From assembly GCF_009649845.1 (NCBI RefSeq), contig NZ_WJIE01000011.1, positions 62,001 through 126,000 of the forward strand: a stretch of DNA of 64,000 nt, read 5' to 3'. A model generated the notes under the pieces. The model had not been told where the DNA came from. It saw only the letters and a program-made list of their open reading frames with translations, and did no database searches. Within the stretch, counting starts at the first letter, position 1. Each line of letters starts with the position of its first letter. Origin of the DNA: Polyangium spumosum (GTDB lineage Bacteria; Myxococcota_A; Polyangia; Polyangiales; Polyangiaceae). Shown here piece after piece: positions 39,388 through 63,702 of the stretch. A program made the translations under genes and the position numbers.

Positions 39388-40130
39388 CCGCACGTCATAC
39401 CTCCTAAGTGCCGCGGCCCGCGTCGAGCGGAGCCGCGACGCCATCCTACCCGGATCCGTCCACGAACCGGGTCCCGGAAGAAGGTGCCCTCGAGGTATCC
39501 CGGAGCGTGAAGGAGGCGACCGCGCTCGGGGACGTGGAGGCTGTGAGCGTCGCCGCTCTGGCGCTCGGTACGTTGCTGTGCGTACCTTCCTGAAGGCTCG
39601 GGGACGCCGAACAGGCTTGACACGGCCTGCCAGCGTGCGTCCTTCCGTGCGTGTGCTCACAGAAAATGCGCCAAAGAGAGGTCCGGACGTCCCGACCTGG
39701 CTTTGGCGCAGGTGCAAAGCCACCTCCGGGCGTCCCGAGACGCGTATGGCGCAGGTGCGAAGCCACCTCCCGACGTCCCGACCTCTCGTTGGCGCAGGTG
39801 CAAAGCCAGGTCCGGGCGTCCCGACCTCTCGTTGGCGCAGGTGCAAAGCCAGGTCCGGGCGCCCCGACCTCTCGTTGGCGCAGGTGCAAAGCCACCTCGG
39901 GGCGCCCCGACCTCTCGTTGGCGCAGGTGCGAAGCCACCTCGGGGCGTCCCGACCTCTCGTTGGCGCAGGTGCAAAGCCAGGTCCCGACGTCCCGACCTG
40001 GCTTTGGCGCAGGTGCAAAGCCACCTCGGGGCGTCCCGACCTCTCTTTGGCGCGGGTGCAAAGACTTCTCCGGGCGTCCCTGCGCTTGTAAAGCGTGGCC
40101 GGGCATGGCACCATCGCCCGCGGCTTGGAC
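39388..40130. other. Intergenic region holding the 43-bp repeat array
   Basis: A 743-bp region between the divergent lipoprotein and vgrG genes. Its first 280 bp (39388-39667) show nothing recognisable; the remainder is mostly the repeat array. Open frames across the array exist in several frames and on both strands because the unit lacks stop codons; I regard them as non-coding. Confidence 0.6.
39668..40093. repeat. Tandem array of about ten 43-bp units with terminal inverted repeats
   Basis: Eight full units starting GGCGCAGGTGC at 43-bp spacing run from about 39708, preceded by a partial first unit and followed by a degenerate last one. The consensus runs GGCGCAGGTGCAAAGCC, then AGGTC or ACCTC, GGGCG, TCCCGACCT, and CTCGTT or GGCTTT. 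The left edge GCGCCAAAGAGAGGTC (39668-39683) is the exact reverse complement of 40038-40053. Individual units carry internal inverted symmetry (AGGTC...GACCT), so each could fold as RNA or DNA. The unit is not a multiple of three, against a protein repeat, and there are no unique spacers, against CRISPR. Confidence 0.85.
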
Positions 40131-42635
40131 ATGGATTATCACGATTTCACGTTTGCGTGGGAGGGCGCCGTCGGCGGCGCGCCCTTCGCTCATCTTCAGG
40201 TGGTCCAGTTCCGCGGCACCGAGGAGCTCTCGGGCCTCTATCGTTACGAAATCGTGCTGCTCGCGCGTGTTCCCGCGCCGGAGGTCGATCCGGCGGAGCT
40301 CGTCCACGCGCGGGCCACGTTGCGGATCGCCACCACGACAGCGCCCGCGTACAAGGTCGTGCATGGGGTCATCGTCGAGGCCGAGGAGCTCGGCGGCGTG
40401 CCCGAGGGCATGCTTTATCGCGTGGTGCTCCTGCCGCCCCTCGTCCGCGCGAAGTACCGCAGGCGCTGCCGGATCTTCCTGGAGAAGACGTTGCGGCAGA
40501 TCATCGACGCGGTCCTCACGGGTGATCCGCTCCTCACGCGCCTCGACGGCGCCTCCGTTGATCCCGACGACGGCGACATGGCGGCGTTCACGCCCGCGGC
40601 CGAGCATTTCACCTGGCGCCTCACGAAGAGCCCGCGCGCCGATCTCGCCTCCGCCCGGCCGTACTGCGTGCAATACAACGAGAGCGACCTCGCCTTCGTG
40701 TCCCGCTTGCTCGAGGAGGAGGGCATCTCCTACCATTTCGAGAACGGCGACGGCGCCTGCCTGCTCGTGCTCTCCGATCAGGACACGGGCAAATCGCGGC
40801 TCGACGGGCCGCTCGGGCCGGGCCTGCCGGGGCGCGAGGTGGGGAGCGTGAAGCTCGGCGGGAGGCTCCGGCCCAAGGTCGTCGCGATCGACGATTACAA
40901 CTGGAAGACGCCCGCGCTCGACATGCGCGTGGAGGCCCAGGCCTCGGCGGGGACGGGCGGCCTCTTCGAATACCACTGGCCGGGCGGCTTCCCGGAGGGG
41001 CCGTCGCAAGGCGCGCCGCTCGCGCGCGCCGCGGCCGAGCGTTATGGCGTGGAGGCCGCTTATGCGGTCGGGGAGGGGCCTTGCCGCGTGCTCTCGGCCG
41101 GGTCCGTCTTTTTCCTGCAGCACGCGAAGGGCCGCTACGAGGGCGAATACCTGGTGACGCGGCTCGAGGTGCGCGGGGAGCAGCAGGGCGTGATGGCCCC
41201 CGGGGGGTTTTCCTGGTCCGGGGTGCCTTTCTCTTGCAGCTTCGAATGCGCGCGACGGGGGCGCGACGGGGGCGTGGCCGAGTCTGGCTTCCGGCCGGAG
41301 CGGCGCACGCCGCGGCCGCGCGTCCAGGGGACGCAGACGGCGTTTGTCACGGCGGAGCCCTCGGCGCGCGACGCGATCGTACACGTGGGCGACCTGGTCG
41401 GCTGCGTGCGGCTGCGTTTCCACTGGGATCACGACACGGAGCGGCTCGCGAAGGAGCCGAGCTCGTGCTGGGTGCGCGTGAGCCAGATGTTCGCGGGCGG
41501 CGGCGAGGGCGCGGTGGGGCACCCGCGCGTGGGGGTCGAGGTCGTGGTGGAGTTCCTCGACGGAGATCCCGACAGGCCCATCGTGACGGGGCGCGTCTAC
41601 AATGGCGCGAACCTCCCGCCGGTGCAGGCCGTGGGCTCGGCGACGACGACGGCGTGGAAGACCACGTCGGTCCCGGGCGGCGCGCAATACAACGAGCTCG
41701 CCTTCGACGACGCCGCGGGCGCCGAGGAGATTCGCTTGCACGCCGGCCGGGACCTGAACACGGTCGTCGAGCTCGATCGGCAGGAGGTCATCAAGCGGGA
41801 CAGCATCTCCACCGTGCAGCAACATCGCTGGGAGAACACCTACGGCGATCGAATGTCGTCGGTGACGGGGGACAACACCGAGCGGGTCCAAAAGAACGAG
41901 CGTATCAAGATCGGCAAGAACCAGGCGCTCGCCGTCCTCGCCAATCAATCGGTCTCCGTGGGCGGGAACCAGACGGTCAACGTCGTCGCCAACCAGAAGA
42001 CGAAGATCGGGGGCAGCCAGACGATCGTCATCGGAGATCCGCCGCCGCCGCCCGGCGCGGGGGAGGGGGACGCGCCGCCGGCCCCGCCGCTCGAGGGGCA
42101 GGAGGTCGAGATCGTCGGCGAGCAAAAGACGACGATTCACAAGGGGCAATCGATCACGATCCTGGAGGGGGGCCAGAAGGTCGAGATCAAGGGGGGCCAG
42201 ACGGTCGGGATCGAGGGGGACCAGACGGTCGAGGTCACGGGCAACCACAAGACCACGGCGACGAGGAGCTTCGAGGCCGGCGCGGCGGAGACGATGTTCT
42301 TGAAGAGCCCCATCCAGAGCTTCGAGGCGGTGAACGGGGGCGCGGGCCAGCAGATGCACACGGCCGATTTCATGATGGTCACGGCCCTCGACACGGGCTC
42401 CTTCTCCGCGCAGAACGCGCTCGCGCTGCAGACGTCGAGCGCAGGCGGCGTCGTGACCATCAAGGGCGGCGTGATCGACGTCGTCGACGCCAGCGGCACG
42501 AATCACATCTCGATCAGCGCGGGATCCGTGACCATCCAGAATGCTGCGATCACGATCCAGGGCAACCCCGTGATCGTTCAGGGCGGCTCGCTGGTCAAGC
42601 TGCAGGCAGACACGATCAAGCTCAACAGCGAGTAA
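40131..42635 (+). CDS. vgrG: Type VI secretion tip protein VgrG (copy 1)
   Basis: An 834-residue VgrG. The gp27-like part has LSGLYRYEIVLLARVP and the YNESDLAFVSRLLEEEGISYHFE motif; the gp5 OB-fold region has LRFHWDHDTER, CWVRVSQMFAGGGEG and VEFLDGDPDRPIVTGRVYN. A long beta-helix needle follows, with NERIKIGKNQALAVLANQ-type repeats, a Pro-rich break (DPPPPPGAGEGDAPPAPP) and a beta-rich tail (about 740-834). It forms the T6SS spike and carries cargo. The start is uncertain: ATG at 40131 fits family homology, another in frame is 36 bases upstream. It is first in a plus-strand run with DUF2169 and PAAR-like genes. Confidence 0.93.
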   Translation: MDYHDFTFAWEGAVGGAPFAHLQVVQFRGTEELSGLYRYEIVLLARVPAPEVDPAELVHARATLRIATTTAPAYKVVHGVIVEAEELGGVPEGMLYRVVLLPPLVRAKYRRRCRIFLEKTLRQIIDAVLTGDPLLTRLDGASVDPDDGDMAAFTPAAEHFTWRLTKSPRADLASARPYCVQYNESDLAFVSRLLEEEGISYHFENGDGACLLVLSDQDTGKSRLDGPLGPGLPGREVGSVKLGGRLRPKVVAIDDYNWKTPALDMRVEAQASAGTGGLFEYHWPGGFPEGPSQGAPLARAAAERYGVEAAYAVGEGPCRVLSAGSVFFLQHAKGRYEGEYLVTRLEVRGEQQGVMAPGGFSWSGVPFSCSFECARRGRDGGVAESGFRPERRTPRPRVQGTQTAFVTAEPSARDAIVHVGDLVGCVRLRFHWDHDTERLAKEPSSCWVRVSQMFAGGGEGAVGHPRVGVEVVVEFLDGDPDRPIVTGRVYNGANLPPVQAVGSATTTAWKTTSVPGGAQYNELAFDDAAGAEEIRLHAGRDLNTVVELDRQEVIKRDSISTVQQHRWENTYGDRMSSVTGDNTERVQKNERIKIGKNQALAVLANQSVSVGGNQTVNVVANQKTKIGGSQTIVIGDPPPPPGAGEGDAPPAPPLEGQEVEIVGEQKTTIHKGQSITILEGGQKVEIKGGQTVGIEGDQTVEVTGNHKTTATRSFEAGAAETMFLKSPIQSFEAVNGGAGQQMHTADFMMVTALDTGSFSAQNALALQTSSAGGVVTIKGGVIDVVDASGTNHISISAGSVTIQNAAITIQGNPVIVQGGSLVKLQADTIKLNSE

Positions 42636-50185: not shown

Positions 50186-51010
50186 GTGCCTCGTGCCCCC
50201 CACCTCTTCCAACCATTGAATACGCAGATCGTCGACGACGTGGAGCGTGCGGTGCGGATCGCGAATGCCGTGCCCCTCACGCGGCTGACGAAGACCAAGC
50301 TTGCCCCCGAAGCAAGCGCCGAACTGGTAAAACAGCTCGTCGCTCGTGGTCTGGAACGCGGTCCGAAGACGATCCGCGTTCCCCTCGCGGCGCAGATCGA
50401 GAGCCTCCTCCAGGGAGGCGCGCGTGTTCCACTCAAGGACGTCGGAAAACGCGTCAAGGGGGGCACGAAGGCCGAGATCCATGCTGCACTCGCCAAGCTC
50501 GCCCGGGAAGGACGCGCGCGCGTCGTGGTGCGAACGCAGGTGGAGGTGCTGGTCGGGCCCGCCGAGCGTGCGCTCGATCCGGCCGAGATCACGCAACTTT
50601 CGAAGATGGCCGCGCAGGTCGGCAAGACGCTCAAGAAGGTGCAGGCCAAGGGCTTACCACGATCGATCTTGCAGGAAGATCTGGCGGCTCTCTTCGCGCC
50701 TCTCCTGCCCTCGCTTCGTTTGGCCGCTGCCATGCCCGACGATGCGTCATCGAATCTCGTCGACGAGGCCCTGCGCCGCCTCGAAGATCCGGCGCTCAAG
50801 CTCGTGCGCATCCCGGATCTCGTGCGCTCCTTGTCCAGCCGTCTCCCGCTCGACGCCATTCACCGCGCGCTCGCCGAGGGCGCGAAGGACGGGACGCTCG
50901 AGCTGCGGCCGGAGGCGGGCGCCGAGTTCCTGAAGCCCGAGGACGTCCCCCTCTGCCCGCCTGGCCCTCGCGGCACCGTCCTCTCCTACGCGAGGCGTGT
51001 TTCTCCGTGA
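50186..51010 (+). CDS. Winged-helix-like protein, first gene of a nuclease/translocase cassette
   Basis: A 274-residue basic, helical protein with no recognised family name. It shows at least two winged-helix-like units: VPLKDVGKRVKGGTKAEIHAALAKLAREGRARVVV (about 81-125) and IPDLVRSLSSRLPLDAIHRALAEGAKDGTLEL in the C-terminal third. Both follow the helix-helix-wing pattern of DNA-binding or KITE-like proteins. The GTG at 50186 (AGGA upstream) is preferred, since the earlier ATG adds unrelated Arg-rich residues. Its TGA overlaps the ATPase ATG by one base (TGATG), so the products are made together. Probable role: DNA binding or complex assembly in the system. Confidence 0.6.
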   Translation: MPRAPHLFQPLNTQIVDDVERAVRIANAVPLTRLTKTKLAPEASAELVKQLVARGLERGPKTIRVPLAAQIESLLQGGARVPLKDVGKRVKGGTKAEIHAALAKLAREGRARVVVRTQVEVLVGPAERALDPAEITQLSKMAAQVGKTLKKVQAKGLPRSILQEDLAALFAPLLPSLRLAAAMPDDASSNLVDEALRRLEDPALKLVRIPDLVRSLSSRLPLDAIHRALAEGAKDGTLELRPEAGAEFLKPEDVPLCPPGPRGTVLSYARRVSP

Positions 51011-53049
51011 TGGATGACCCGTTCCAGACCATCCACGCGGATGCATGGGACCCCGCTCCGATCGATGTCCCCTCGATCAACACGCGCGCGAGCTCCCTCG
51101 TGCGCGCGCACATCGAACAGCTCCGCGACGTTGGGGTCCGCGAGGGAATGGGGGCTCGCTCGACGTCGATCCTGCTGCTCGGTCCTGCCGGGATTGGCAA
51201 GACACACCTCTTCACGCGGCTACGCAAGCAGGTGGGTCCACGCGCCGTCTTCGTGCACACGCGGCCCGAGGTCGGCGTCGATCCATCGCCCCGCCACGTG
51301 CTGTCAGCGACGCTGCGCTCGCTCAGGCAGCCGGTGATCCAGCAGCAACACCGGCAGATCGACGTCATCGTGGGGGCCATGCTGGCGACGCTCGAAGGCG
51401 GTCGTCCGCGCTTCCCCTTGTCCTTCATCGACGACTGCCTGAGGCAGCCGCTCGACACGCAGCGTGAGATCCTCTCGCGTGCCGTCGCGCAGGTCGAGGA
51501 TCGTTTCCCCGACGTATCCGCGCGTTACCTCGAGCACCTCCTGCGCCTGCCCTTCGCGGACCGCCTGCACCAGCGTGCTCTCTTTGCGTGGCTCTCGGGT
51601 GAGGAGCCGAGCCAGGCGCAGCTCGACATGATCGGCGAGCGTGTTGCCCTCCGCGAGGATGACCTCATCCTCGCGCTGCGCACGCTCGGCGTGGTGGCGA
51701 CGTTCGGCGCGCCCATCGTGCTCGTGTTCGATCAACTCGAGAACCTCGCGGAGGAGGAGGGAAAGACAGGCCGGATCATCCGGCACGCGCGCCTCGTGAG
51801 CGAGCTACGCGACACGGTGCGTGGGCTCGTGATCGTGCAGATGGCGCTCGACGCCGTCTGGATGCAGCGCATTCACCCGGTGCTCCACGCCAGCATGCGG
51901 GATCGGCTCGAGGAGAAGATCGAGCACCTCGCGCTCCCGACCCCCGAGCAGCGGCGAGAGCTCATCGAACGGTGGAGGAGCGCGCTGCCCGAGGAGGAGA
52001 ACAGCAAGCCATTTCCGTATCCGTTCTCGACGAGGCAGGTCGATGCATGGCTCGGCACGCCGGGAATGACGCCGCGTATGCTGATGCAAAGCTGTGGTGA
52101 GGCGTATCAGCGTCGAGCCCTGCCCGACGCAGAGGAGGCGGAGCCTGTCGACACCTCGCCGGACGAACGCCTCGCGGTGGCCTGGCAGCAGCTCCTCGGG
52201 CGAGCGCGGAAGTGCATCGACGAGGCCGCGGCGCAGGCCCAGGGCGTGGCAGCCGAGAGCATCCGCGCAGGGCTCCTTTCGGCGCTTTCGGTCGCGCAGG
52301 TGAAGGCCGAGACGGGGGAGACGGAGGGGGCTCCTGCGCTGCGCATTCGCATGGCCGACGGTGGCTGCGATATGCTTTTCGTGCAGCAAGCGCATCATCG
52401 CTCGCTCGCCCGGGTCCTGCGCGCAGCGATCGCGCTCGCCGACGAGCGCAAGGTTTTGCTGTTGCGCGAGCAAGCGTTCGCGATCCCGCCGACGTGGAAA
52501 GAGGTTCACAAGCTCCTTGGCACGTTCACCGGGAAGGCCAATGCTTCGTTCTTGCCGATCGAACGCGAGGCCCTGGCACGGCTGCTCGCCGTCGAGCGCC
52601 TGCTCGGCGCGGCCCGCTCGCAGGATCTGAGCGACGACGCCGGCAAGGTGATTGCGTACGATACGGTGATGGATTGGGCCCGGCGCACGCTCGGCTGCAA
52701 TGCGTGGGGGCCGGTGGAAGTCCTGTTCGGAGTGACGACGTCACCTGTCTCGGCGCCCCCGGCTCCTCGGCCGCCCGAGCCCCCGCCGCCTCCTCCAGCC
52801 CCGAATGCCGCCACCGCCCGCGAGCATGCAGACGAAGCATTTCCTCGCGCGACAGTGAAGACGCTTGCGGACGGTCCGGTGCTTCGAGAGCTGCGCAAAC
52901 TCCGGGTCGCGTCGATCGATCGCCTCGTGCGAGAGGTGCGCGCGTGTGAGCCCATGGCCACGCGGGCAACCGTCATGGAGGAGCTCGCCAGGCTGCCAAT
53001 CAAGCGTTTCGGCAGCGCGATCGTCGCGCTGGAGGAGCCATGGCGCTGA
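51010..53049 (+). CDS. AAA+/ORC-like P-loop ATPase of the cassette
   Basis: A 679-residue protein. The ATPase core has Walker A GPAGIGKTH (58-66) and Walker B IVLVFDQLENL (D241), with an arginine-containing helical lid (ERWRSALPEE and MTPRMLMQSCGEAYQRRAL) as in Cdc6/ORC or TniB-like AAA proteins. A helical middle (about 400-560) and a Pro-rich linker (about 580-605) lead to a C-terminal winged-helix-like unit (RKLRVASIDRLVREVRA...ATVMEELARLPI). It probably loads, senses or remodels DNA for the partner nuclease/translocase. It is coupled to both neighbours by overlaps of 1 and 10 bp. Not matched to a named defence ATPase by eye. Confidence 0.75.
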   Translation: MDDPFQTIHADAWDPAPIDVPSINTRASSLVRAHIEQLRDVGVREGMGARSTSILLLGPAGIGKTHLFTRLRKQVGPRAVFVHTRPEVGVDPSPRHVLSATLRSLRQPVIQQQHRQIDVIVGAMLATLEGGRPRFPLSFIDDCLRQPLDTQREILSRAVAQVEDRFPDVSARYLEHLLRLPFADRLHQRALFAWLSGEEPSQAQLDMIGERVALREDDLILALRTLGVVATFGAPIVLVFDQLENLAEEEGKTGRIIRHARLVSELRDTVRGLVIVQMALDAVWMQRIHPVLHASMRDRLEEKIEHLALPTPEQRRELIERWRSALPEEENSKPFPYPFSTRQVDAWLGTPGMTPRMLMQSCGEAYQRRALPDAEEAEPVDTSPDERLAVAWQQLLGRARKCIDEAAAQAQGVAAESIRAGLLSALSVAQVKAETGETEGAPALRIRMADGGCDMLFVQQAHHRSLARVLRAAIALADERKVLLLREQAFAIPPTWKEVHKLLGTFTGKANASFLPIEREALARLLAVERLLGAARSQDLSDDAGKVIAYDTVMDWARRTLGCNAWGPVEVLFGVTTSPVSAPPAPRPPEPPPPPPAPNAATAREHADEAFPRATVKTLADGPVLRELRKLRVASIDRLVREVRACEPMATRATVMEELARLPIKRFGSAIVALEEPWR

Positions 53050-55040
53050 GCTCTCAGCCCCTTCCCCGGCGCGGCGCCCGCGAGCTCTCCGTCACCGAGA
53101 TCCGCAACGCCCTCCGTTGCCCGCGCGTCTTCGCGCTCGGCCGCGCGCGCGGTCAGGCCGTCGCTTTCCCGATCGGCGCCTCGTCCCTCGGCGCGCTCTT
53201 CCACCGCATCGCCGAGCGTTTTGCGTGCGAACTCGAGGCGCCTCCCGAGCCCGTGCGCCTACTCCCCCCGCATGCGCCACGCGAGCGCGTGGCAGATGGC
53301 CTCTCGGCCTGGCTCCTTGGCCACCTCGTGGACGAGCTCGAAGCGAACCCCAGCGCGGCGAGCATGCCCGGCGAGATCGACGACCTGGCCGAGGCGCTGC
53401 GAGAGCTCGCGCGCTACCTGGCGAAACAAATCGAAGGCACGGGGCACGGGCCGGCGGAGGCCTTGCGCACGTTCCTTCAGCACGCCGAGCTCGCGGTCGA
53501 CGCCGTGCTCGACGCGTCCGGAGGCATGCCGGTGCGTGTCTCGGGCCGGATCGATGCGGTGTATTGTCGGGCGAGAGGCGCCGTCGATGTCGTCGAATAC
53601 AAGCTGACGGACGAGGCCAACCAGGAGCTCGACCAGGCGCAGGTTGCGCTTTATCGTTACCTCTTGCGCTCCGCGCTCGATCTCGACGCGGATCCGCTCA
53701 TCCTGCGCTTCAAACCGGGGCTCATCGAGACGAAGCTCTCGCCGGTGGCTGCTGACGGCATTGTGGACCGGACCCTCTCACCCCTGCTCGGCAGAATGGT
53801 GAGCTGGTCGGAGCGCCCCGAAGACGCGCCTCCGACCTCGCGCCGGGATCTCTGCCCGACGTGCCCTGTACGGCCGGCGTGTGTCGAGACGTACCGCGAC
53901 GCGCTCGAAGCTCGTGATCAGCCGCCTGCGGGCGCAGCTCGCCCCATGCCCGATCCGGCCGGGCGACTGACCGTGCCTCCTCCGCGCGAGCCCGTAGGTG
54001 CTCTGCCGGACGACACCGAGGGCATGGCGGAGGCCGAGGCCCTCGCCACGCAGATCGTCGCGCAGCTCAAACGACAAGGGGTCATTGCGAGCCTCGGTCG
54101 GAGGACAGTGGGGCCGCGGCTCCTGCGGATCGAGGTGACGAGCCCGCGGCAACGCGTGGCGCAGCTCGATCGCGCTGCGCAGGACGTGGAGCATCACCTC
54201 GCCGGGTACAACGTACGGTACGAGCGGGACGAGGCGAGGCGATACTTCACGGCGCCGCGAAAGGTGGCGCGCAGGGTCGTCCTCGAAATGCTGCTCGCGC
54301 GCAAAGCCGCGTTCTTGCGCGAGCGGCCGGGGCGCTTCGTGCTCGGGGAAGGGCTCGATGGCGAGGTGATCGCCGGTGACCTCGCCGACGGGAGCTCATG
54401 CCATCTGCTCGTGGCCGGTCAGACGGGGAGCGGAAAATCGGTTTTGTTGCGTGCTCTGGTCGTCGGGCTTTGCCATTTTCATCCACCGGCGGCCATACGG
54501 TTCACGCTGGTCGATCCGAAGCGCGTGACGTTCGGCGGGCTCGCTGCGGGGATCGGCGCGCATCTGGCAGGGCCGATCGTGTACGATGTGGAGGTGCTCC
54601 TCGCGGAGCTCGACGCGCTCGTGGCCGAGATGGAGGAGCGGTACACGCTCTTCGAGCACCGGAAGGTGCAGAGCATCGACGACTACAACGACCTCGCTCC
54701 AGCTCCGCTGCCGCGGCGGGTGGTCGTGGTGGATGAATTTCAGGATTTGATTGCGTCGAAGGCAACGCGGCAACCGTTCCTGGACGTGGTGAAGCGGCTC
54801 GGGTCGATGGCTCGCGCGGCCGGGATTCACCTCGTACTGGCGACGCAGCGGCCCGACCGCACGACGGTGCCCGGAGAGATCAAGGCGAACCTGGGCGGGA
54901 GGGTCGCGCTGCGCGTGCAGGAGGTCATCAATTCGAGGATCATCCTGGACCAGGGTGGGGCGGAGGAGCTCCTCGGAAAGGGAGATTTCTACGCGGACCT
55001 CGGGCACGGGCTCGTGCGGGGGCAGGCGCCGATGGCGTGA
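53040..55040 (+). CDS. Cas4/AddB-like Fe-S nuclease fused to FtsK/HerA-type DNA translocase
   Basis: A 666-residue two-part protein. Residues 15-290 form a PD-(D/E)XK nuclease of the RecB/Cas4 class: His55, Asp172 in GRIDAVY, Glu186/Lys188 in VEYKL, and Gln201/Tyr205 in QVALY. Cys27 with C272, C275 and C281 gives the four-cysteine iron-sulfur staple seen in Cas4 and AddB. Residues 335-666 are an FtsK/SpoIIIE-like motor: GQTGSGKS (460-467), LVDPKRVTF, VVVVDEFQDL (561-570), ATQRPD and GGRVALRVQ. GGAGGAG lies just before the ATG, inside the ATPase gene (10-bp overlap). It would move along DNA and cut it. The gene ends the cassette. Confidence 0.85.
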   Translation: MALSSQPLPRRGARELSVTEIRNALRCPRVFALGRARGQAVAFPIGASSLGALFHRIAERFACELEAPPEPVRLLPPHAPRERVADGLSAWLLGHLVDELEANPSAASMPGEIDDLAEALRELARYLAKQIEGTGHGPAEALRTFLQHAELAVDAVLDASGGMPVRVSGRIDAVYCRARGAVDVVEYKLTDEANQELDQAQVALYRYLLRSALDLDADPLILRFKPGLIETKLSPVAADGIVDRTLSPLLGRMVSWSERPEDAPPTSRRDLCPTCPVRPACVETYRDALEARDQPPAGAARPMPDPAGRLTVPPPREPVGALPDDTEGMAEAEALATQIVAQLKRQGVIASLGRRTVGPRLLRIEVTSPRQRVAQLDRAAQDVEHHLAGYNVRYERDEARRYFTAPRKVARRVVLEMLLARKAAFLRERPGRFVLGEGLDGEVIAGDLADGSSCHLLVAGQTGSGKSVLLRALVVGLCHFHPPAAIRFTLVDPKRVTFGGLAAGIGAHLAGPIVYDVEVLLAELDALVAEMEERYTLFEHRKVQSIDDYNDLAPAPLPRRVVVVDEFQDLIASKATRQPFLDVVKRLGSMARAAGIHLVLATQRPDRTTVPGEIKANLGGRVALRVQEVINSRIILDQGGAEELLGKGDFYADLGHGLVRGQAPMA

Positions 55041-61509: not shown

Positions 61510-63702
61510 TTATTGACCGATCCCCGTCCGGCTCACGTCGTCGAGCGTGGGCAAGGGAGGCGGGGCCACCTCCGCGCGCGCGGGCTCGAGCGGCGCTTCG
61601 GGCTTCGCCTCGGAGGCCGAGATCGGCGCGCCGCCGCTGTTGATCTTCACCCGCGAGCCCTTGATCACGATGCCGTCGGGCTGCACGCGGATGAAGCCGC
61701 CCGGGCCCTTGATGCAGAAGTCCTCCTCGACCTCGAGGACGAGCCTCTTCGCCTTGATGGAGAGCGTCTCCTTCACCTCCACCACGTGCTCACCGGCGAT
61801 CGTCTCGTGCCGATCGCCGCCCACCGCCACGGAGTGCGAGCCGCCGATGCGCACGACCGCGCTCCCCCCGACGTCGAGGTGCTCGGCGCCGACGTGCTCG
61901 CGCCGCTCCGCCTCCACGACGACGTCGACGCCGCCCTCGATCGTCCAGCGCGCGTTGCCGTGGATGAGCTCGTCGTCGTTGCTCTCGACGATCGTCGTGC
62001 GGCGCTGGCCGATGTGCGTGGTCCGGTTCGCCTCGGTGATCTCCGTGCGATTGTTCCTCGTGACCTCGGTACGATCGCGCAGGGTCACCTCGGTCTCGTC
62101 GCGCTTGACGAGCTTCGACCGATCGTTGCCGACCGTGAGCACCTCGTCGTGTTTCGTGAGCCTGCGCCGGTCGCGCTCGGCCTGCTCGTAGACGAGCTCC
62201 CGCCCCTTCAGATCCTCGAACAAGATCTCGTTGTAGCCGCCCGTCTGGCCCGTGGAGTTGCTCTTCCACGCGCTGCGCGTCCGGTGCTCGGGCAGGCGGT
62301 ACGGCACCTTTTGCAGGTTGGTGAAGACACGACCGACGATGATCGGTCGATCCGGGTCTCCGCCGAGAAACTCGACGAGCACCTCCTGCCCGACCCGCGG
62401 CAGGTTGATCCCGCCGTAACCGGCGCCGCCCCAGAGCTGGCTGACGGGCACCCAGCAGGAGCTCTCGTTGTTCATGCGCCCCTCGCGATCCCAGGGGAAC
62501 TGCACGCGAACCCGGCCGAGCTCGTCGACGTGGATCTCCTCGCCTGGCGGGCCGACCACCGTGGCCGTCTCCATGCCGTTCACGCGTGGCTTTCGTGTCA
62601 CGAGCGGCGGCCGATAGGGGATCTCGGTCGCGCGCGCCTCGACCTCGTGGCTCCACTCCCCGGTGGCCGTCCCGTGGATCCGGCTCCCCACGACGAGCAA
62701 GCGGCGCTCCTCGGCCATCATCGGGTGCGGGTGCCCCTCGACCGAGAGGACGAGCCCGGGCGCGAGATCGAGGGCGTTCGTGGAGAACGTGCAGGACTTC
62801 GCGTTGCCCCGCTTGGCGTCGAGCCGCTTCTGCGCGAGCGCCTCGCCCAGGGCCTCGTCCGATCGCGTCTTGCCCCGGTCATCCGCGGCGGGCGTGGACT
62901 CGCCCTTGTCGGTCCCGAAGAGGAACGCGCCCGGGGTGTAGTGAAATCGCTCGAGCCGCTCCTCGACGCCGCGTCCCCGCGACGCGCTCGCGCCGAGGGG
63001 ATAGTCGGGCGCGAGGCGATAATCGCGATCACGCATCGTGTACCGGCCCGGCCGGACGCGCTGGCCGATGCGGACGTTCGTGACGAACTCCAGCGGCGCG
63101 GCGCCGGGCAGGGGACGCTCGACGTGCACGAGGGGCGCGCTGCGCGGGGCCGCGTCGTGGGGATTGGCGGAGAGGACGAGGCGCGTCTCGTCGCCCGCGG
63201 CCACGAAGAACGACGCGACGCCTGCGTCCTCGAGCATGCGGCACACGAACGCATGATCATTCTCGGCGTACTGGAGCCGATACTTGCGCTTCTTGTAGAT
63301 GGCCCGGTCGAGCCGCAGATCGACCTCGACGCCCCACTCGCGGAGCAACACGAGCGCAATGTCCGGCTCGGTCATCTGCTGGAAGATCCGGTAATTGCGC
63401 CGCTGCGTCGCGAGCCAGAGCCGGGGGACGATCCGGAGCTCGTAGGTGCTGAGGCCGACCTCGTCGGTCCCCGTCTGCATGATGTGCGCGACGACGCCGG
63501 AGAAGACGCGCTCGCCCGCGCCGAAGCGGATCCGGAAGCGCGCGGGCTGCCCGACGATCGAATCGAAATCGAGCGCGGGGTTCGGCGAGTGGACCATCAG
63601 ATCCACGGTGAAGAGCGCGGACATGCGGTCCTCGACGACGAAGGTCCGGACGTCCAGGGGGATCTGGGAAGCGAGCTCGACGGAGAGGTTCTCGAGCGAC
63701 AT
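61510..63702 (-). CDS. vgrG: Type VI secretion tip protein VgrG (copy 2)
   Basis: A 730-residue VgrG. The gp27-like part includes LSTYELRIVPRLWLATQRRNYRIFQ and YRLQYAENDHAFVCRMLEDAG; the OB-fold has VDELGRVRVQFPWDREGRMN and CWVPVSQLWGGAGYG, with VEFLGGDPDRPIIVGRVF. The needle has NDRSKLVKRDETEVTLRDRTEVTRNN-type repeats and ends in a beta-rich tail and Pro-rich end (EAPLEPARAEVAPPPLPT). It is closer to canonical VgrG than copy 1, which has a longer needle. The ATG at 63702 is supported by homology. First gene of the vgrG-PAAR-adaptor operon. Confidence 0.95.
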   Translation of the reverse strand: MSLENLSVELASQIPLDVRTFVVEDRMSALFTVDLMVHSPNPALDFDSIVGQPARFRIRFGAGERVFSGVVAHIMQTGTDEVGLSTYELRIVPRLWLATQRRNYRIFQQMTEPDIALVLLREWGVEVDLRLDRAIYKKRKYRLQYAENDHAFVCRMLEDAGVASFFVAAGDETRLVLSANPHDAAPRSAPLVHVERPLPGAAPLEFVTNVRIGQRVRPGRYTMRDRDYRLAPDYPLGASASRGRGVEERLERFHYTPGAFLFGTDKGESTPAADDRGKTRSDEALGEALAQKRLDAKRGNAKSCTFSTNALDLAPGLVLSVEGHPHPMMAEERRLLVVGSRIHGTATGEWSHEVEARATEIPYRPPLVTRKPRVNGMETATVVGPPGEEIHVDELGRVRVQFPWDREGRMNNESSCWVPVSQLWGGAGYGGINLPRVGQEVLVEFLGGDPDRPIIVGRVFTNLQKVPYRLPEHRTRSAWKSNSTGQTGGYNEILFEDLKGRELVYEQAERDRRRLTKHDEVLTVGNDRSKLVKRDETEVTLRDRTEVTRNNRTEITEANRTTHIGQRRTTIVESNDDELIHGNARWTIEGGVDVVVEAERREHVGAEHLDVGGSAVVRIGGSHSVAVGGDRHETIAGEHVVEVKETLSIKAKRLVLEVEEDFCIKGPGGFIRVQPDGIVIKGSRVKINSGGAPISASEAKPEAPLEPARAEVAPPPLPTLDDVSRTGIGQ

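Follow-up and report, generated by a model that had tools for sequence, protein, structure and literature searches.

HerA/FtsK capture systems are a class of anti-invader systems predicted in 2024 by Rakesh, Aravind, and Krishnan (PMC10853773). As described in the main text of that paper, they combine an Orc/CDC6 ATPase, in which an inactive restriction endonuclease (REase) domain is inserted before the C-terminal winged helix-turn-helix (wHTH), with an active REase and a HerA/FtsK motor; a subset further possesses a fast-evolving gene with two to four wHTH domains that is related to DndG, SspB, and FokI. One of the two REase families distinguished there is named by its relation to AbiJ, and an FtsK-alpha domain is found in one branch of the class. 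BREX-Related Capture (BRC) has been described as a related BREX hybrid (PMC12839542). We found no experimental test of the capture class in the literature searched, which excluded preprints and most subscription papers. Here we analyze a compact 4.9-kb cassette of three genes (T1, T2, and T3; together, the trio) in a 64,000-nucleotide stretch of the genome of the soil bacterium Polyangium spumosum (contig NZ_WJIE01000011.1, positions 62,001 to 126,000; hereafter, the window). We propose, with a probability of roughly 0.6, that the trio acts on its own as a restriction machine that captures DNA and belongs to this predicted Orc/CDC6-coupled HerA/FtsK capture class. The three genes lie in the window as follows.

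50186..51010, + strand: T1, GTG start at 50186, stop at 51010, 274 amino acids (aa)
51010..53049, + strand: T2, ATG start at 51010, stop at 53049, 679 aa
53040..55040, + strand: T3, ATG start at 53040, stop at 55040, 666 aa

T1 and T2 overlap by 1 bp and T2 and T3 by 10 bp, in agreement with the open reading frames and overlaps given in an earlier note on this DNA, and these overlaps suggest that the three products are translated together. In comparisons with two other Polyangium, the ratio of nonsynonymous to synonymous substitution rates (dN/dS) is low in all three genes (T1, 0.20 and 0.23; T2, 0.16 and 0.16; T3, 0.10 and 0.12), and the trio is thus under purifying selection. Judged by the trio locus, the nearest named relatives of this genome (10.76 Mb in 61 contigs) are Polyangium fumosum and two other Polyangium.

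Scanning genome contigs with the T3 nuclease domain as the query yielded 23 loci, which come from Cyanobacteria, Acidobacteriota/Holophagaceae, Myxococcota, and deltaproteobacterial bins, and one further copy (L025) is located on a plasmid of Pseudanabaena that was typed as conjugative. The trio counts across loci come from a six-frame profile search, and some of the neighboring genes are possibly miscalled. T2 lies directly upstream of T3 in 23/23 loci, so that the neighborhood survey named in the earlier note as a check did find the genes to co-occur. T1 stands ahead of T2 in 21 of these loci, and the other two are interrupted by contig ends. The T2 gene of L032 is truncated, and that of L033 is spread over two frames. 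The order T1-T2-T3 is conserved in relatives from Myxococcota, Acidobacteriota, and Cyanobacteria, and in the last phylum it was seen in 17 of 20 regions around T2 matches (including L138, with T3 incomplete as called; one of the 20 was not gene-callable).

T3 unites a nuclease and a translocase motor.

53082..53882, + strand: PD-(D/E)XK nuclease domain of T3, with cysteines 27, 272, 275, and 281 (PDDEXK_1, 2.6e-20)
54318..54854, + strand: FtsK/SpoIIIE motor of T3, residues 427-605 (PF01580, 2.3e-33, profile positions 14-219 of 221)

The residues G169, D172, E186, K188, and Q201 are present in 45/45 aligned T3 sequences and the Walker residues in 44/45, the exception being L138, which ends early as called; the alignment omits L032, L033, L034, L064, and L140, which are truncated, cut, or not called. 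We take the four-cysteine pattern of T3 to be the iron-sulfur (Fe-S) pattern of AddB and Cas4. Cysteines 272, 275, and 281 occur in 40/40 members of this Fe-S branch and in 0/5 of a sibling branch; the position of cysteine 27 is gapped in five cyanobacterial rows, probably on account of late gene-call starts. The FtsK-alpha domain is recognized in the Pseudanabaena T3 (4.2e-08) and matches the T3 of the window at only 0.028. A search with the T3 nuclease profile retrieved no relative from viral contigs, nor any from solved structures at an expect value (E) of 0.1. Sibling T2-T3 systems, with a T3 nuclease devoid of the cysteines, were observed at L059-L063. At L059, in the 16-Mb genome G039, T2 and T3 are fused in a single 1,314-aa protein, which argues that the two work in contact.

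T2 resembles the ATPases of the ORC/Cdc6 and TnsC type.

51082..52119, + strand: AAA+ core of T2, about residues 25-370 (Z 15.5, root mean square deviation [rmsd] 3.6, to 7ufi_1 [TnsC, 240 residues] and 1fnn_A [Cdc6, 245 residues])
52252..52617, + strand: residues 415-536 of T2, an alpha-beta-beta-beta-alpha-beta domain (from the secondary structure seen in the model)
52873..53037, + strand: residues 622-676 of T2, its winged-helix-like C-terminal end (judged only by how helices and strands are ordered in the model)

It matches Pfam AAA_16 (4.6e-08) and displays a Walker A motif, GPAGIGKT, at residues 58-65 and a Walker B motif, IVLVFD, at residues 236-241, with G58, G61, G63, K64, and D241 invariant across 20/20 T2 proteins. 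In the T2 model (predicted local distance difference test score [pLDDT], 85.2), the best structural matches of the AAA+ core are TnsC and Cdc6. The domain at residues 415-536 is a candidate inactive REase, as read from the model; no invariant or near-invariant acidic or lysine residue was found in it among the 20 T2 proteins. The C-terminal end is preceded by a low-confidence proline-rich linker and was barely covered in the structure comparison.

T1 is a basic protein (isoelectric point, 10.07).

50378..50566, + strand: winged helix of T1, residues 65-127 (VIA-align Z 10.3, rmsd 1.5, 60 residues, 3pqk_B)
50744..51001, + strand: C-terminal winged helix of T1, residues 187-272 (AlphaFold model and alignment; Z 8.4, rmsd 1.7, 63 residues, 8s0e_7)

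Its AlphaFold model (pLDDT, 84.5; predicted template modeling score, 0.53) contains winged-helix units, and a Foldseek search with this model placed SspB (6lb9_A) at rank 12 with an E of 0.017. Its one match in Pfam is at chance level (E 0.32), and the T1 and T2 profiles gave weak matches only against solved structures. T1 has the highest dN/dS of the trio; being both basic and the fastest evolving of the three, it fits the expectation for a recognition subunit, and we consider it the likely DNA-recognition subunit of the system. These analyses bear out the domain content that the earlier note had described, namely, a basic T1 of winged-helix-like form (as far as the model goes), an ORC-like AAA+ T2 with intact Walker A and B motifs, and a T3 with nuclease and FtsK motor in one chain.

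Under our proposal, T1 would bind DNA and determine what is recognized. In an ATP-dependent manner, T2 would build an ORC/TnsC-like ring or filament on that DNA and bring in T3, whose FtsK motor would then pump the DNA past T3's own PD-(D/E)XK nuclease, which would cut it. We infer such a T1-T2-T3 complex, its loading and pumping steps, and invading DNA as its target, the last from the patchiness, mobility, turnover, and neighbors of the cassette.

A T3 match at 1e-30 is present in 21/98 genomes of the family; 16 of the 98 have the closer, Fe-S type, at 42% identity or more (G046, with an internal stop, among them), and five have the sibling type, at 33-37% identity. Even within the six genomes of Polyangium, the closer type is found in four (truncated in one), the sibling type alone in one, and neither in one. 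T2 matches occur in at least 15/377 genomes of the phylum and in at least 45/339 Cyanobacteria, these being lower bounds from a search in which three candidates were scored per genome. The sole DNA common to the compared stretches of two Polyangium loci (L026 and L027) is 4.96 kb long and consists of the trio flanked by ~100-125 bp on its upstream side and 5 bp on its downstream side. Another Polyangium locus (L032/L066) shares parts of the wider site seen in the window; there ~1.2 kb is missing, from the end of T2 into the start of T3, and thus the trio looks dispensable at this site. Read from these comparisons, the cassette is mobile and patchy.

Several observations weigh against a capture function; they are taken up here and below, along with the neighbors that favor it. 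PADLOC and NCBIfam searches with T1 and T2 gave matches at chance level only. Further, 2/20 of the cyanobacterial regions have T1-T2-T2 without T3, and hence T2 is not tied to T3 everywhere. At L134, L135, and L136, T1 precedes a tandem pair of T2-like ATPases; T3 is absent from these neighborhoods, although L135 also possesses a full trio. They are perhaps the paired-ORC neighborhoods of PMC10853773, in which related ORC genes are coupled to a second ORC protein, as stated in the main text of that paper.

The copy in the window is surrounded by type VI secretion-like genes (40095-63702) and does not lie in a recognized defense island.

40095-42635 and 61510-63702: VgrG-like proteins

The other neighbors in the window are three DUF2169 proteins, one FHA/DUF4123 protein, and kinase genes, and no modification gene was recognized among those scanned. 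The neighbor survey of the other loci covered 100 of 121 listed genes (16 of L046/L047 and five others were left out). One might regard the trio as an accessory or effector cassette of type VI secretion from its position among VgrG-like, DUF2169, and FHA/DUF4123 genes and from a DUF2169 gene near another locus; however, this is one of the 100 neighbors scanned elsewhere, and the trio proteins are of a DNA-handling kind, which makes such a role the least credible of those considered. Several other loci have ordinary neighbors, and at three the neighbors point to DNA repair: L042 has SbcD/SbcC-like genes behind the trio, L043 has AddB/AddA-like genes ahead of it, and L065 has RecB/RecD-like genes nearby (the last by inspection only). 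These would also fit a process in which T3, like a fused HerA-NurA or AddB, degrades broken DNA or processes its ends, with T1 and T2 as its loader, and the four-cysteine PD-(D/E)XK domain of T3, being of the PDDEXK_1 type, is likewise compatible with it. Yet the closer type is unmatched in 82/98 genomes of the family, its presence varies within a genus and its site between strains, one Polyangium copy is truncated, and methylases and SNF2 helicases are the neighbors at other loci; we therefore consider a repair function unlikely.

SNF2 helicases lie just upstream of the trio in L025, L030, L042, and L044 (4/24 loci, some of the 24 being truncated on that side), and the one in L042 is DpdE-like (2.7e-236). 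On the Pseudanabaena plasmid, a SWIM zinc-finger protein and an SNF2/DUF3670 helicase are encoded at positions 7304-11441 of L025, divergently from the trio. In L031, the trio adjoins the named defense genes ZacB and ZacC (one locus). A DNA methylase gene is found upstream of T1 in L045-L048, four cyanobacterial loci at one common site; three have the motifs DPPY and FLGSGTT, and the fourth, cut by a contig end, belongs to the same cluster. A D12 DNA methylase is encoded two genes upstream of the fused T2-T3 in L059, and two N6_N4_Mtase proteins are present among the scanned neighbors; methylases accompany only some copies, in two lineages. At 1e-10, PADLOC matched 141 families for the 100 neighbors and 96 for a control set of 98 genes drawn at random from four genomes. 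Among the 25 matches listed for each set, those of the control were all protein kinases and those of the neighbors were SNF2-type and kinase models, and a crude motif test detected no SF2-like helicase among the control genes. The backing that this survey lends to a defense context is weak, as is its control. The defense context named as a check in the earlier note is suggested by the methylases, SNF2 helicases, or Zac genes beside some copies; it does not extend to the type VI secretion-like surroundings of the copy in the window or to the loci with ordinary or repair neighbors.

The cyanobacterial loci bring in a further adverse point, a 294-aa ParA encoded within 8 kb of T2 in 19/41 genomes (those with T2 matches above ~180 bits; G462, G485, G534, and G568 were dropped from the 45). 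In seven of the other genomes among the 41, ParA and T2 are on different contigs. One possibility is that the cassette serves the partition or replication of DNA, either for a mobile element or for the chromosome: the ORC-like T2, the FtsK motor, and ParA would segregate the DNA, which the nuclease would trim or resolve. The copy on a plasmid typed as conjugative would also suit such a role. However, of the 36 genomes with a close ParA (above 500 bits), 15 have no T2 above ~180 bits (four have weaker T2-like matches), another cassette is found at 6 of the 12 such ParA loci that were fetched, and a motif scan of called genes detected no ParA at the myxobacterial loci. We hold a partition function to be unlikely as well. 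ParA was also considered as a fourth subunit and was downgraded, since it is found without T2 as well.

At these six loci (L157, L158, L159, L162, L163, and L164), the chromosomal ParA is adjoined by a ParB-like gene and a protein of 418-458 aa whose restriction-like N-terminal part is joined to a second ParA ATPase; these names come from inspection of the sequence in two cases and from similarity in the rest. The restriction-like/ParA fusion and the ParB-like gene possibly form a rival mobile cassette. In two of the six loci, fragments of T3 are left, its first 187 residues in one and its last 197 in the other; from these remnants, the trio was evidently once present there and then lost or replaced. 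With fragments of T3 beside another cassette, the trio thus behaves as exchangeable cassettes do. Related genomes differ at the ParA site, which holds the complete trio, pieces of T3, or a different cassette, and they thereby offer natural comparisons of gain and loss.

Weighing these points, we favor capture and restriction of invading DNA: of the readings considered, the one in the earlier note, by which the trio recognizes, reels in, and cuts foreign DNA, has the best support in view of the conserved linkage, intact nuclease, patchiness, mobility, and neighbors, whereas the repair genes and ParA near some copies suit the alternatives. More tentatively, the trio might be the invariant core of a restriction platform with an exchangeable rule for telling self from nonself, to which different lineages add a methylase, SNF2 helicase, ParA, or nothing, with the fast-evolving T1 retargeting an ORC-loaded FtsK-nuclease pump to incoming DNA; this elaboration is less likely than not. 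As a compact three-gene version with its active-site residues intact, the trio makes the prediction of a capture class directly testable. If the mechanism proposed here holds, DNA restriction would be tied to ATPases of the replication-initiator type and to FtsK pumps.

Turning to named systems, the earlier note could match the trio to none, and indeed no PADLOC 2.0 model names it, nothing being recognized beyond motor, nuclease fold, or P-loop. HerA-NurA and AddAB similarly bring a pump or helicase and a nuclease to act on DNA; to our knowledge, neither is a cassette of three genes that includes ORC-like and multi-wHTH subunits.

The SspABCD-SspFGH system shares with the trio a set of three genes, an FtsK-like subunit, and a Walker A subunit, and DndFGH shares a triple-wHTH subunit, an REase, and a HerA/FtsK motor (PMC8092258 and PMC10853773, respectively). 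One might regard the trio as a variant of SspFGH or DndFGH with phosphorothioate-free DNA as its substrate, and the T3 motor does match the PADLOC SspH model at 2.9e-59. Yet the first ~1,500 positions of SspH are unmatched, and over the same region T3 scores 203 bits versus 119 + 95 bits, in two pieces, for the housekeeping FtsK of the genome. As the housekeeping FtsK scores about as well in total, the match reflects common FtsK ancestry only, and membership of T3 in the SspH family was rejected. The SspF and SspG models match neither T1 nor T2 of the window at an E of 1, nor any of 21 T2 proteins at an E of 0.1, so that no likeness beyond the common motor was found; the DndF, DndG, and DndH models do not match the window trio at an E of 1, and DndF matches elsewhere are weak (at most 2/21 T2 proteins for one model, the best at 7e-4). 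Among the VIA-align matches listed for T1 and T2 there is no SspB, DndG, or FokI, which excludes nothing. TIGR03183 (DndC), the one sulfur-modification component searched for, has no match in the genome. Further, DndH is a single chain of ~1,700 residues, and DndF is kinase-like where T2 is ORC-like, according to the main text of PMC10853773. A variant of SspFGH or DndFGH of this kind is thus very improbable.

BRC (PMC12839542) resembles the trio in having an ORC/Cdc6 ATPase, a wHTH module, and a HerA/FtsK motor in a single locus; it differs in its PglZ, STAND NTPase, TGT, and GNAT components, which the trio itself lacks. It is the Orc/CDC6 capture class, as set out in the main text of PMC10853773, that the trio resembles in the largest number of features: an AAA+ ATPase of the ORC/Cdc6 clade (TnsC and Cdc6 aligned at Z 15.5 across 240-245 residues), an REase predicted to be active from its PDDEXK_1 residues (intact in 45/45 T3), a HerA/FtsK motor (PF01580, 2.3e-33), a fast-evolving multi-wHTH gene (compare the T1 units at residues 65-127 and 187-272), an extra domain ahead of the winged-helix-like C-terminal end of T2, its fold read from the order of secondary structure elements, and mobile neighborhoods. 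Since its architecture matches this class, the cassette is not new in kind, and the suggestion of the earlier note that it is a candidate new system gives way to the prediction made in 2024 for the same set of domains. The main text of PMC10853773 does not contain the terms "myxo," "cyanobacteria," "Fe-S," "Cas4," or "AddB," and its description of the class is without a four-cysteine nuclease, linked methylases, or a ParA linkage, all of which are found among the trio and its relatives. Subject to the supplement of that paper, the present loci might therefore add to the published class a branch with a four-cysteine nuclease and a sibling branch without the cysteines, links to methylases in two lineages, and turnover at a ParA site.

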